Source: Natronolimnohabitans innermongolicus JCM 12255 (GTDB lineage: Archaea > Halobacteriota > Halobacteria > Halobacteriales > Natrialbaceae). Taken from it: DNA of 64,000 bases. The notes under the pieces were generated by a model, which saw only the letters and a list, made by a program, of their open reading frames with translations, had not been told where the DNA came from and did not search any database. The position numbers were made by a program, and so were the translations under genes. The stretch covers positions 2,468 to 66,467 of the forward strand of contig NZ_AOHZ01000030.1 of the NCBI RefSeq assembly GCF_000337215.1, given 5' to 3'. Positions 2,635 through 53,229 of this stretch are shown in pieces. Positions within the stretch are counted from its first letter, which is position 1, and each line of letters begins with the position of its first letter.

Positions 2635-3537
2635 TTACGATTGCGGCGTCTCGTTCACGTTCGGCGGCTGGTCCCACTCGGAGCCGTCGTCCTGCGGTTC
2701 GTAGCCGAGGACGTCCTTGGCGTGTTCGGTGTCGAACCAGCGGGCGGCGTTGTCGCTGACGGCGTAGAACGTGTCGTAGGTGACGGTCTCGTTCTCGAGG
2801 CAGCACTCGATCAGGTGCGCGAAGTCTCGCTGGGAGGTCCAGGAGGCTTTCAGTCGGTCGACCATCTCCTCGTACTCCTCGCTGCCGCGCTCCCACGAAC
2901 CGGTCTGGGACGGGTCCCAGGCGTCGTCGCCGTCGACCGCGTCGTCGGTGCCGCGGTGGACGCCGCGCTCGGCGTCGCCGTAGGGGTGGTCGTACGCTTC
3001 GGCGCGGACGCTCGAGATCCGAATCGAAAAGAACTGCGAGGGGGCGCCCTCTCGTCGCGCATAGACGCGACCCATGTTCTCGCCGAACACTTTCGTCGCG
3101 CCGTAGAAGCCGTCGGGCTTCGGGAGCGTCTCGTGGTCGAGGAGCAGGTCGTGGTCCTTCTCGTAGAGCTCCGGCGCGTTGTCCTCCTCGTAAAGTCCCA
3201 TCACGCGCTGGGAGGAGGCGTAGATCACTTTCTCGACGCCGGCGTCTTCCGCGGCCTCGAGGACGTTGACGGTGCCGACGATGTTCGGCTGGATAACCTC
3301 GTCCAGCTCCGCGCCGGCGTCGGACTGCGCCGCGAGGTGGATCACCGCGTCCTGGTCCTCGAACGCGGGACGGATCGCGTCGTAATCGCTGATATCCGCG
3401 ACGTGCGTCTCGTAGTCGGGGTGGTCGTTGCGGTCGAGCAGCGTGAACTCGTACTCCTCCGAGCCGATGAGATGCGTCCGTAGCGCCTGCCCGGCTTCGC
3501 CGAACGGACCCGTAACTAAGACGTTTTGCGTAGCCAT
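2635..3537 (-). CDS. NAD-dependent epimerase/dehydratase-family protein, uronate/sugar dehydrogenase-like
   Basis: 300-residue extended SDR. Seen: glycine-rich NAD loop GPFGEAG at residues 10-16, the HLAAQSDAGA segment near 67-76, Ser in YASSQ near 106-110 and the catalytic YGATK at 145-149. The arrangement resembles uronate dehydrogenases and the haloarchaeal NAD-dependent glucose-6-phosphate dehydrogenase Azf; members of this group oxidise the C1 hydroxyl to a lactone. The neighbourhood (carboxylate transporter, MBL hydrolases, RraA protein, glycerate kinase) favours oxidation of a sugar or sugar acid, but the substrate is inferred only. A TATA-like element (tatatatg on the plus strand, 3573-3580) lies about 36-43 nt upstream of the ATG. 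Confidence 0.75.
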   Translation of the reverse strand: MATQNVLVTGPFGEAGQALRTHLIGSEEYEFTLLDRNDHPDYETHVADISDYDAIRPAFEDQDAVIHLAAQSDAGAELDEVIQPNIVGTVNVLEAAEDAGVEKVIYASSQRVMGLYEEDNAPELYEKDHDLLLDHETLPKPDGFYGATKVFGENMGRVYARREGAPSQFFSIRISSVRAEAYDHPYGDAERGVHRGTDDAVDGDDAWDPSQTGSWERGSEEYEEMVDRLKASWTSQRDFAHLIECCLENETVTYDTFYAVSDNAARWFDTEHAKDVLGYEPQDDGSEWDQPPNVNETPQS

Positions 3538-49481: not shown

Positions 49482-50648
49482 ATGGACTACGGTGAAACCG
49501 AGGAACACGAGCTGATCCGCAACAGCGTGCGTGAGATCGCCGCCGACTACGACCACGGCTACTGGCGAGAACACGTCGAGAACAAGACGTTCCCGGAGGA
49601 GTACTGGGACGACCTCGCTCGAGACGGCTGGCTCGGCGTCACGATCGACGAGGAGTACGGCGGCGCCGGCCTCGGGATGCTCGAGATGTCGATGGTGATC
49701 GAAGAGCTCTCTCGCGGCGGCGGACAGGGGGGCGTCATCTTCGTTCTCACGCCCGTCTTCGGCGGGATCAGCGTCCAGCGCCACGGCACCGAAGCGCAAA
49801 AAGAGCGGATCCTGCCGGCGATCGCGAACGGCGAGATGCGCTTCGCGATGGGACTGACGGAGGCCAGTGCGGGGACGAACCTGCTGAACATCGATACGAT
49901 CGCCGAGCGCGAGGGAGACGAGTTCATCCTGGACGGCCAGAAGATGTGGATCAGCGGCGTCGAGAACGCCGACGAGATGCTGCTCGTGACCCGCACCAGC
50001 GAGTACGACCCGAGCAACCCGACCCACGGTATCACGCTGTTTCTCGTGCCCAACCCCGCCGAGCAGGACGCCATCTCGCTGACGCCCCTCGAGGTCGAGG
50101 TGCCGTGGTTCGAGACCCAGTATCAGGTCGATATCGACGACCTGCGGCTCCACGAGGACCGGATTCTCGGGAGCGAGGACGGCGGGCTCTACCTGCTGTG
50201 GGACACGCTGAACACCGAGCGCATCGGCGGCGCCGCGAGCGCCGTCGGCGCCGGGCTGCGCGCGACCGACCTCGCCGTCGAGTATGCGAACGATCGGTCG
50301 GTGTTCGGCCAGAAGATCGGCGGCCACCAGGCGATTCAACACCCGATCGCCGACGCCTACTCGGAGGTCATGTGCGCCCGCGAGATGATGTACAAGGCCG
50401 CCTGGAAGTGGGACAACGGCGAGGACGCCAGCGCCGAAGCGAACATGGCGAAACTGCGCTCGAGCGAGGCCGCGACCTACGCCGCCGACCGGGCTCTCCA
50501 GACCCACGGGGGCAGCGGCTTCTCCGCCGACTACGAGATCTTCGGTCTCTGGGCGAACGCCCGGCTGCTCCAGACGGTGCCGATCACCAACGAGATGGTC
50601 AAGAACTTCCTGGGCGAACACGAACTCGGGATGCCGCGGTCCTACTAA
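49482..50648 (+). CDS. Acyl-CoA dehydrogenase
   Basis: 388 residues, standard length. GLTEASAGTNLLNIDTIAE and KMWISGVENADEMLLVTRT form the flavin/substrate domain; NTERIGGAASAVGAGLRATD and DRSVFGQKIGGHQAIQHPIAD lie in the C-terminal helical domain, closing with ALQTHGGSGFSADYEIFGLW. FAD-dependent alpha,beta-dehydrogenation of an acyl-CoA, with electrons passed to ETF. Promoter features suggest a leaderless message under the palindromic site. Confidence 0.93.
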   Translation: MDYGETEEHELIRNSVREIAADYDHGYWREHVENKTFPEEYWDDLARDGWLGVTIDEEYGGAGLGMLEMSMVIEELSRGGGQGGVIFVLTPVFGGISVQRHGTEAQKERILPAIANGEMRFAMGLTEASAGTNLLNIDTIAEREGDEFILDGQKMWISGVENADEMLLVTRTSEYDPSNPTHGITLFLVPNPAEQDAISLTPLEVEVPWFETQYQVDIDDLRLHEDRILGSEDGGLYLLWDTLNTERIGGAASAVGAGLRATDLAVEYANDRSVFGQKIGGHQAIQHPIADAYSEVMCAREMMYKAAWKWDNGEDASAEANMAKLRSSEAATYAADRALQTHGGSGFSADYEIFGLWANARLLQTVPITNEMVKNFLGEHELGMPRSY

Positions 50649-50673
50649 CCAACCTCTTTTCCCGGGGGCATCA

Positions 50674-50963
50674 GCTGGCGTCTACGACGCCAGCTCAACC
50701 CCCGTCTGCTCACGGGCGCGTAGCGCCCGTTCTCACGGCTCGCGGGACCTCCGGTCCCGCGCTGGCAAAACCCGTTGATGCCGTCAGAACGCGTCGCGTT
50801 CTGACTGCCAATCAGAACCGTACGCGGTTCTGATGATGCCAAAAGGCCGACGGATCGGCCTTCGGCCTCACCGTCGGTGTCGTTCGAAAGAGCGCTTGCG
50901 CTCTTTCGTGATGCCGAGAGCGCTCGCGCTCTCGTAGCAAAACGCCTCGCGTTGCTCGGCGTA
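50674..50963 (+). repeat. Array of eight or nine consecutive hairpins
   Basis: Between acyl-CoA dehydrogenase and the following genes lie strong hairpins with tiny loops in close series: 50674-50696 (10-bp stem, loop TAC), 50713-50731 (8 bp, loop GTA), 50742-50762 (9 bp, TCC), 50784-50806 (10 bp, GTC), 50812-50835 (10 bp, TACG), 50848-50878 (outer 7 bp with an inner GGCC/GGCC), 50886-50909 (10-11 bp), 50916-50935 (9 bp), and a weak one at 50943-50963. The linker TGATGCC or GATGCC recurs at about 50777, 50834 and 50910, and AAAA follows several linkers. Stem sequences differ, so it is not a CRISPR or a simple tandem repeat. Confidence 0.75.
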
Positions 50964-51108
50964 TGCGAGTTTAGAATGACACCGTGCCGTGGCGCGTGCT
51001 GTCGGCCGGCCGAGCAACTGCGAGGGCGGCCGATACCATCACGCGAGGGATGAGAACCGCAGCGGACGAACGCGGCGCGTCGCGCCGCGAGGAAGCGAGG
51101 ACCGCAAT

Positions 51109-51136
51109 CGGCTGGGGAGGACGTGGCGATCCCCAG
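51109..51136 (+). repeat. Copy B of an 18-bp hairpin-associated repeat
   Basis: Same CGGCTGGGGAGGACGTGG (51109-51126) as at 28948. Here CTGGGGA pairs with TCCCCAG downstream, a 7-bp stem with an 11-nt loop. It follows a purine-rich stretch containing GAGGAAGCGAGGACC. The tail after the stem also matches copy A loosely and ends in GCAG in both. Confidence 0.55.
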
Positions 51137-51220
51137 CGCCCACGATAGCAGAGTCACCGTACTCTGTCTTCGGTCACCGTGACAGCCGCGTACGACGTCC
51201 GGATGCGTCGAGGCGGAGCG

Positions 51221-51383: not shown

Positions 51384-53060
51384 TCACAGCTCTTCGTCGC
51401 TGGACTCGAGCGACCCCTCGAGTCGCTCTTCGACTTCCGCCTCGAGTTTGAACCGCTGGACCTTCTGGGTCGCGCTCCGCGGAAGTTCGTCGACGACGAA
51501 CACCCGTCGCGGGTGGGCGTAGGTCGCGACGCGCTCGAGGGCGAACGACCGGATCTCGTCCTCTGCGAGGTCGGCGTCGGGTTCGGGGACGACGAACGCC
51601 ACCGGAGCCTCGCCTTTGACTTCGTGTGGGGCGGCGACGACGGCGGCCTCGGCGATATCTGGGTGGTCGTAGAGGGCGTCCTCGATCTCGGCCGGATAGA
51701 TGTTGTGTCCCCCGGCGATGATCATGTCGTCGGCGCGGTCGACCATCCAGAAGTAGCCGTCCTCGTCGACGCGGGCGATGTCCTCGGTGTAGAACCAGCC
51801 TTCGTCGTCGAAAACCGCCTCGTTCTTCTCGGGGCGATTGTAGTAGCCCTCGAACACCGTCGGGCCACGGATAGCAATCTCGCCCGTGACCTGCTCCTCG
51901 TCCTCGAAGTCGATGTCCTCGTCCGGGTATGGCTCGAGTTGCTCCGTACTGATCCGCGTCTCGCGGCTGTCGGGGTCGACGAGTCTGAGGTCTACGTTCC
52001 GGAGCACCGGGCCGATACAACCGGCGGACTTGCGAACGCCGCGAGCGGGCTCGACTGTGCCGGCGGGACCGGTCTCGGTCATCCCCCAGCCCTCGACCAT
52101 CGGCACGCCCCAGGCTTCTTCGATGGTCCGACGGGTGTCGTCGGCCAGCGGCGCGGCCGCACAGATGACGTCCTCGAGCGAACTCAAATCGTAGGCCTCG
52201 GGGTTCTCCCGGTACTCCTGCCACATCATCGTAAACAGTGCGGGGACACCTGCGAAGTTAGTGACCTCCTTTTCCGAGAGCGTCTGGAGGAGCATCTGTG
52301 GGTCCGGGCGCGGCACCATGTGCATCGTCGCGCCGTTGTAGAGGAAGGTCCCCTGGATGGCGTTGAGCGCGTAGATGTGAAACAGCGGCAGGACGAGCGC
52401 GATACTGTTGTCGGGATCGACCGCGATCCCACCCTTGGCGTAGGCCTCGATCGTCGACAGCAGGTTCTCGTGGGTCAATAGAACGCCCTTCGGTTTGCCG
52501 GTCGTCCCCGAGGTGTAGGGTTGACAAACCACGTCGTCGAACGCCCGCGGGACCGTCTCGAACTCCGTAGCGGCGTCGGCAACCGCCGCGGAGTAGTCGA
52601 TGACGCTGTCGTCGGTAACCGCCGAGACGTAGACGTTGGACACGCCAGCCCGCTCAGCGAGGTCCGTCGGCGGAATGATCCGTCCGTCGTCGGTGTCCAT
52701 CCCACCGGCGAGCAGCGGCGAGGCGATCATGTGGTCGACGTTGCCGTCCTCGAGGACGAACTCCAGCGTGGACGGATCCATCCGAAGGTTCAGCGGCACC
52801 GGAATCGAACCGGCCTTGATCACCCCGAAGTAGGCTTCCGGAAACTGGTCGGTGTTCGGGATGTAGAGTCCGACGCGGTCGTCGGGTTCGACGCCGTTGT
52901 CGACCAGCACGTTCGCGACGCTGTTCGCTCGCGCCTCGAGATCCCGAAACGACGTTTCGGATCCCATGAACGACAGCGCCGTCTTCTCGCCGTATCGATC
53001 GGCAGCCATCGTCGGCAATGCACCCATGTGTGTCAGCCGTTCTCCGTTGTGGTACTCCAT
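51384..53060 (-). CDS. Acyl-CoA synthetase (AMP-forming)
   Basis: 558 residues from the ATG at 53060. ANL-family motifs: P-loop PYTSGTTGKPKGVLLTH near 192, GWGMTETGPAG near 335, GWFYTEDIARVDEDGYFWMV near 432 and the hinge MIIAGGHNIYPAEIEDALY; the C-terminal catalytic Lys lies in SATQKVQRFKLE. It makes acyl-CoA from a free carboxylic acid, ATP and CoA; chain length is not readable. TATAAATT at 53090-53097 is 30-37 nt upstream, with the candidate operator between it and the start. Confidence 0.94.
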   Translation of the reverse strand: MEYHNGERLTHMGALPTMAADRYGEKTALSFMGSETSFRDLEARANSVANVLVDNGVEPDDRVGLYIPNTDQFPEAYFGVIKAGSIPVPLNLRMDPSTLEFVLEDGNVDHMIASPLLAGGMDTDDGRIIPPTDLAERAGVSNVYVSAVTDDSVIDYSAAVADAATEFETVPRAFDDVVCQPYTSGTTGKPKGVLLTHENLLSTIEAYAKGGIAVDPDNSIALVLPLFHIYALNAIQGTFLYNGATMHMVPRPDPQMLLQTLSEKEVTNFAGVPALFTMMWQEYRENPEAYDLSSLEDVICAAAPLADDTRRTIEEAWGVPMVEGWGMTETGPAGTVEPARGVRKSAGCIGPVLRNVDLRLVDPDSRETRISTEQLEPYPDEDIDFEDEEQVTGEIAIRGPTVFEGYYNRPEKNEAVFDDEGWFYTEDIARVDEDGYFWMVDRADDMIIAGGHNIYPAEIEDALYDHPDIAEAAVVAAPHEVKGEAPVAFVVPEPDADLAEDEIRSFALERVATYAHPRRVFVVDELPRSATQKVQRFKLEAEVEERLEGSLESSDEEL

Positions 53061-53067
53061 ATCGCGA

Positions 53068-53080
53068 TTGACAATAACAC
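53068..53080. promoter_or_regulatory. Candidate operator shared by acyl-CoA genes, copy 2
   Basis: TTGACAATAACAC (plus-strand reading) lies between the synthetase TATA box and its ATG, where a bound repressor would block initiation. It differs in one base from the site before the enoyl-CoA hydratase gene, which however reads in the opposite orientation relative to transcription. Confidence 0.4.
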
Positions 53081-53229
53081 CCAATATGGTATAAATTATC
53101 GTTATGGATCTACCAGTTCGACACGGGAGAACTCGGATCGCCGCTCGGCGGCCAGAAGCGCCTCGGGCACAGGCAACGTCGATGTCGATGTCGACGCTGA
53201 CGCTGACGTCCGTCGATCCGTCCGGCGAG

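Follow-up and report, generated by a model that had tools for sequence, protein, structure and literature searches.

Introduction

The closest described relatives of the locus studied here are the small mobile repeats (SMRs) of Haloquadratum, which form unrelated families, lack a transposase and insert into the palindromes of IS605-type elements and of PATEs (palindrome-associated transposable elements) by a route left unexplained; in 2011 the movement of such small elements was termed enigmatic (PMC3119063). The SMR-A elements of Haloquadratum walsbyi (HqIRS42, HqIRS43 and HqIRS55) are ~110 bp long, with prominent inverted terminal repeats and no duplication of the target, and PATEs, short haloarchaeal elements with palindromes, are often the hosts of SMRs (PMC3119063). 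The REP, REPIN and BIME sequences of bacteria are likewise short palindromes that lie outside genes, dispersed and in mosaics. Bacterial REP/REPIN systems need a RAYT (REP-associated tyrosine transposase). Hairpins downstream of genes can also act in transcription: in Haloferax volcanii, termination occurs at T stretches, and a tested hairpin gave 59% termination (PMC7237163).

We analysed a 64,000-nt stretch of Natronolimnohabitans innermongolicus DNA (the window, whose positions are used throughout) that carries a dense run of small hairpins. The original prediction had offered a structured RNA, a recombination or anti-termination region, or a growing palindrome array, and had added that no described element has this form. 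That last statement is not quite right, as the Haloquadratum SMRs (PMC3119063) and bacterial REP/BIME mosaics come close. The run is a pile-up, not one structured gene or RNA, and we consider it very likely that it is a composite produced by serial, nested insertion of small dispersed hairpin elements. On this reading the frame, an older and itself dispersed repeat of ~145 nt with hairpins, situated directly after a stop codon and between convergent genes, would have been entered by three unrelated transposase-free mini-elements of 58–60 nt (modules D, A and B), each consisting of two short hairpins and a fixed linker.

These modules resemble SMR-A in being transposase-free, dispersed, haloarchaeal and divided into several unrelated families, and in inserting within near-terminal palindromes of IS605-type elements, as found here for A (right end of TnpB elements) and B (left end). 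They are unlike SMR-A in their length of 58–60 nt, in their twin-hairpin form and in ranging across the class. The best reading of this comparison, made by description, is that the modules work like SMRs without being filed as SMR-A. The frame, although not tied to any IS605 end, may be a PATE; the three modules lack the length for one.

Results

The hairpins occupy part of the gap between the ends of an acyl-CoA dehydrogenase gene (49482..50648, + strand; Pfam PF00441/PF02771), whose stop codon lies 1–2 nt ahead of the array, and a convergent gene for an AMP-binding protein (acyl-CoA ligase; 51384..53084, − strand; Pfam PF00501). Eight disjoint perfect stems of 8–11 bp with loops of 2–4 nt occupy 262 nt (50673–50934), at 50673–50695, 50712–50730, 50741–50761, 50783–50805, 50811–50834, 50843–50862, 50885–50908 and 50915–50934, and a ninth near 50943–50964 is imperfect, in agreement with the eight or nine small-loop hairpins first noticed. 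In 1000 dinucleotide shuffles of the region the mean stem count was 0.058 and the maximum 2, and the remaining 33 hairpins of this type in the window are spread across the other 63.7 kb. Folding energy of the array region gave z values close to −11 for the + strand and close to −10 for the − strand. Open frames through the array matched no Pfam family, which bears out the earlier impression that none has protein character; we read them as the wrong-frame proteins common in GC-rich DNA. The run is thus a real and highly non-random feature. Chance, an artefact of GC-rich composition or a coding region can be set aside with near certainty, given eight stems against a shuffled mean of 0.06, frames without a protein family, and independent copies of the array's pieces at other places.

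Those copies revealed its make-up. With the array as query, the host genome returned pieces at separate places, each covering another part of the array, and 40 related genomes returned more than 150; segments A, B, C and D each match separately, in the host and in other genomes. From left to right, the array begins with the left part of the frame (50650..50703, + strand; CAACCTCTTTTCCCGGGGG...hairpin...CAACCCCC), which matches dispersed repeat copies in three genomes (G002, G005 and G008). Module A follows (50705..50763, + strand; 59 nt and one extra G) and is missing from the frame of G005 and G002. Beyond the middle part of the frame (50764..50782, + strand; GGCAAAACCCGTTGATGCC) lies module D (50783..50840, + strand; 58 nt), which is missing from the frame of G002 and present in G005, G008 and G021. 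The hairpin part of the frame (50841..50879, + strand; AAAAGGCCGACGG...CCGTCGGTG) has similar segments at two other loci of the host genome (L003 and L008). It is followed by module B (50879..50938, + strand; ~60 nt; GTCGTTCGA[hp]TCGTGATGCCGA[hp]TCG), which has TAGCAA in place of the usual 3' end AACCAC, and by the right part of the frame (50939..50966, + strand; AAAACGCCTCGCGTTGCTCGGCGTATGC).

In all three modules the linkers and ends are conserved while stems and loops vary. The patterns are TCTGCTCACGGG..CCCGTTCGCAYGGTCCGCGGGACC..GGTCCCGCGCT for A (59 nt), GTSGTTCGA[hp]TCGTSATSACGA[hp]TCGAACSAC for B and GTCGTCAGAA..TTCTGACTGCCAATCAGAA..TTCTGATGAC for D. Terminal inverted repeats are found in B (GTSGTTCGA/TCGAACSAC) and D (GTCRTCAGAA/TTCTGAYGAC) and not in A, and the two B stems in the window, at 50885 and 50915, resemble each other. 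This layout accounts for two regularities that had been noticed in the letters alone. The motif GATGCC recurs (50777, 50835 and 50910) because one copy belongs to the frame, the second is a repeat at the far side of D, within the 58 nt assigned to it, and the third is the B linker, which usually reads GATGAC. Module D accounts for the TCAGAAC arms common to the neighbouring stems at 50783 and 50811, which form its two halves. The suggestion that structure is kept while sequence varies holds across genomes within each module family; it does not hold between neighbouring stems, which belong to different families.

The frame exists by itself. In G002 it is a dispersed repeat of ~145 nt, standing alone without A, D and B; removal of the three modules (for B, about 50880–50939) from the window sequence leaves 145 nt, and these match the G002 copy from one end to the other with 85% identity (120/142) and a score of 91.5 against at most 18 in 200 shuffles. 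G005 has an intermediate, the frame with D and without A and B. All three stages, simple, intermediate and present, therefore exist, and the growing palindrome array of the original prediction gains support, recast as serial insertion of dispersed twin-hairpin elements. Four frame copies in G002 are alike, with unrelated flanks and a common right end, ...AACGTTCACTAAGCA, so that the frame, too, is probably mobile. At four loci, one of them L003, we also noticed a recurrent arrangement, CCTTTTTNCGC...[A]...GCGCAAAAATCT, often after a stop codon and with a T run on each strand, that looks like a bidirectional terminator with inserted modules.

At the corresponding loci of Natronococcus, Halostagnicola, Halorientalis and Halovenus the dehydrogenase gene and the convergent ligase gene are kept and the array is absent; two of the four carry an additional gene between them. 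In a congeneric genome the orthologous locus was not found. Among the genomes compared, one per species, no insertion that differs between strains was seen.

The targets of module A are clearest at TnpB elements. There A splits the right-end palindrome at GGAAGCCCCA^CCCT, in three genomes (G014, G012 and G076) and others that also have intact copies, and the reading frame upstream of A at these sites is the TnpB C-terminus. The entry point is the left palindrome arm, CCCCA^CCCT...AGGGTGGGG, plus one extra base. When the flanks of one G014 copy of A were joined, they matched intact TnpB right ends in nine genomes (G013, G150, G012, G008, G076, G018, G126, G264 and G014 itself), and right ends with A between their halves were found in G014, G183, G243, G013, G018, G076 and others. 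One A copy, on a plasmid of Halostagnicola larsenii, extends over the final codons of an annotated tnpB. As for possible target duplications, module A comes with one extra base, which is A at TnpB ends and G at the present locus, and D is flanked on both sides by GATGCC.

Other palindromes, too, contain modules. One B copy of the host genome lies in the palindrome at the left end of an IS605-type element (L085); an exact uninterrupted copy of that end was not found. The Y1 transposases of this genome were considered as direct donors and rejected, as the ends of their elements are unlike the modules and one end instead holds a B copy; no transposase could be linked to the modules. A twin hairpin of a further family lies inside an IS200-type right-end palindrome, CCCCGCCC...GGGCGGGG, at ~1875–1975 of locus L083 in the same genome, and at L050 D lies within the linker of a B copy. 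Extra hairpins are ~7-fold enriched within 200 nt of A: the two nearest 100-nt bins contain 35 and 34, against ~5 per bin beyond 400 nt. Pairing between the two flanks of A was not above that of mismatched flanks, so that A does not always sit at the apex of a larger palindrome and its target must be wider than hairpin tips. Insertion into a palindrome is established at the IS605 ends and some further sites, though not for each A copy.

A second, unrelated dispersed repeat adjoins the array (50983..51152, − strand; CCTCCCCAGCCGATT...CATCCCTCGCG). It has ~8 further copies in the host genome, and its relatives in several genera carry an inserted module A. Also in the host genome, near 2600 of contig C91, a tnpA is broken, with an in-frame stop, by a twin hairpin that resembles module A (GCAAAGC GTA GCTTTGC ... 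CGCGGGATC TTC GATCCCGC).

Module A is widespread. A covariance model (E ≤ 1e-4) found it in 189 of 292 haloarchaeal genomes, with up to 18 copies per genome among the matches listed, and in a phylum-wide sample of 197 genomes all 23 positives were haloarchaea. Plasmid carriers include Natrinema, Natronorubrum, Natrarchaeobaculum, Halostagnicola, Halorientalis and Natrononativus; in viral contigs the core of A had no exact counterpart. On a Halorientalis marina plasmid (L236, near 3001–3059), a copy of A shares sequence with the 3' end of a gene annotated as N-6 DNA methylase.

We surveyed the surroundings of 60 A copies with genes predicted by a home-made gene caller. Convergent gaps accounted for 23 of the copies, tandem gaps for 31 and divergent gaps for 1, with 3 copies inside predicted genes, whereas control gaps from the same loci were 10 convergent, 40 tandem and 26 divergent (convergent vs divergent, p = 1.2e-7). 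Within tandem gaps A was closer to the end of the upstream gene in 20 of 31, and its orientation relative to genes was free (11 same, 20 opposite). Either promoter-near insertions are purged or A is of benefit at 3' ends.

Finally, we examined how the stems vary. Pairing holds in 98.9% of cells across 89 distinct A copies, and two-sided changes numbered 120 vs 15.8 in shuffles, a trend repeated on the first alignment, which was built without the model. An RNA stem is expected to tolerate G-U far better than A-C. Yet the 1766 pairs of A included 13 G-T and 8 A-C, and the 409 pairs of B, in which some copies are counted in both readings, included neither. For five of the arm contexts of A, some copies carry a loop and others its reverse complement, for example GAA and TTC. 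Paired changes with almost no G-T intermediates, together with loops in both orientations, point to a palindrome kept at the level of DNA. The stems thus fit palindromes that are kept or corrected as DNA, with which an effect as RNA would also be compatible. Covariation this strong need not signify RNA, a caution for other cases, since the pairs here co-change almost without G-U steps.

Discussion

A structured non-coding RNA under selection for base pairing would predict the strong pairing and the many two-sided changes, and we nevertheless regard it as very improbable: G-U intermediates are few in A and wanting in B, the same arms carry loops in both orientations, the array is a mosaic that is absent in relatives, and Rfam gave nothing above its gathering score (best CRISPR-DR20, 19.4 bits vs 42, E 0.42). 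An RNA or anti-termination role, as proposed in the original prediction, also sits poorly with a gene orientation that is not fixed and with the lack of a clear excess of G-T over A-C. A system of the bacterial REP/REPIN kind, in which B and D would be tagged hairpins in inverted pairs, mobilised by a RAYT and assembled into BIME-like mosaics, is a somewhat better candidate that we still think unlikely. B is indeed a GTSGTT-hairpin followed by its inverse with AACSAC, and D a GTC-hairpin followed by its inverse, in a dispersed, intergenic mosaic. However, no RAYT (NF047646) exceeded the curated cut-off in any of 41 genomes, the control search giving one genome above it; the ends are GTSGTT (B), GTC (D) and TCTGCTC (A), with no GTAG or CGTC tag; and the two hairpins of A are not inverse copies of one another. 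Unlike in REP/REPIN/BIME sequences, the stems here are far more variable than the linkers, and inserts are located in other palindromes. We found no mention of haloarchaea in the RepRanger paper.

There is a possible, though tentative, case for a device of gene 3' ends, in which the frame supplies T-stretch terminators on both strands, the hairpins stop read-through, antisense transcription or exonuclease decay in the space separating the two convergent genes, and modules are kept as useful. The frame starts with CTCTTTT a few nt past the stop codon and its AAAAs face the other gene, stop codons at other places are likewise followed by T-run frames that contain A, A strongly favours convergent and tandem gaps, and both T stretches and a hairpin terminate in Haloferax volcanii (PMC7237163). 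Those haloarchaeal terminators (PMC7237163) share with the array T stretches and hairpins after genes, but they are single signals, whereas the array is put together from dispersed repeats. Against such a device, A occurs in either orientation to genes, the pairing lacks an RNA signature, the array is absent in other genera with the same gene neighbours, and avoidance of promoters is an equally good explanation of the bias. Both readings could hold together: elements of mobile origin could later acquire an effect at 3' ends.

Serial insertion remains our preferred explanation. The modules are dispersed across haloarchaea, often within existing palindromes (IS605/TnpB ends, other hairpin repeats and each other), and may have got there by an active process akin to transposition that uses single-stranded DNA or extruded hairpins. 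They persist chiefly past the ends of genes, the likely reason being that copies close to promoters or within genes are lost, and their perfect stems may be upheld by palindrome correction or by selection on DNA hairpins. More speculatively, and less likely than not in our view, there could be a class-wide guild of 60-nt twin-hairpin DNA elements with no recognised transposase that spread by inserting hairpins into hairpins, possibly in single-stranded DNA, time and again break TnpB/IS605 ends, perhaps with them the guide RNA, and have their stems perfected by palindrome correction at the DNA level.

An odd hairpin run has thus become a readable history, from simple through intermediate to present form, and the element families are now defined with searchable models. 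The exact filled and empty sites in TnpB ends are defined substrates for testing TnpA, host nucleases and replication slippage. Elsewhere in the host genome, on contigs C84 and C72, two IS605-type left-end palindromes (L233 and L232) contain runs of ~4–6 different hairpins (at least five in L233), and these are independent arrays resembling that of the window.
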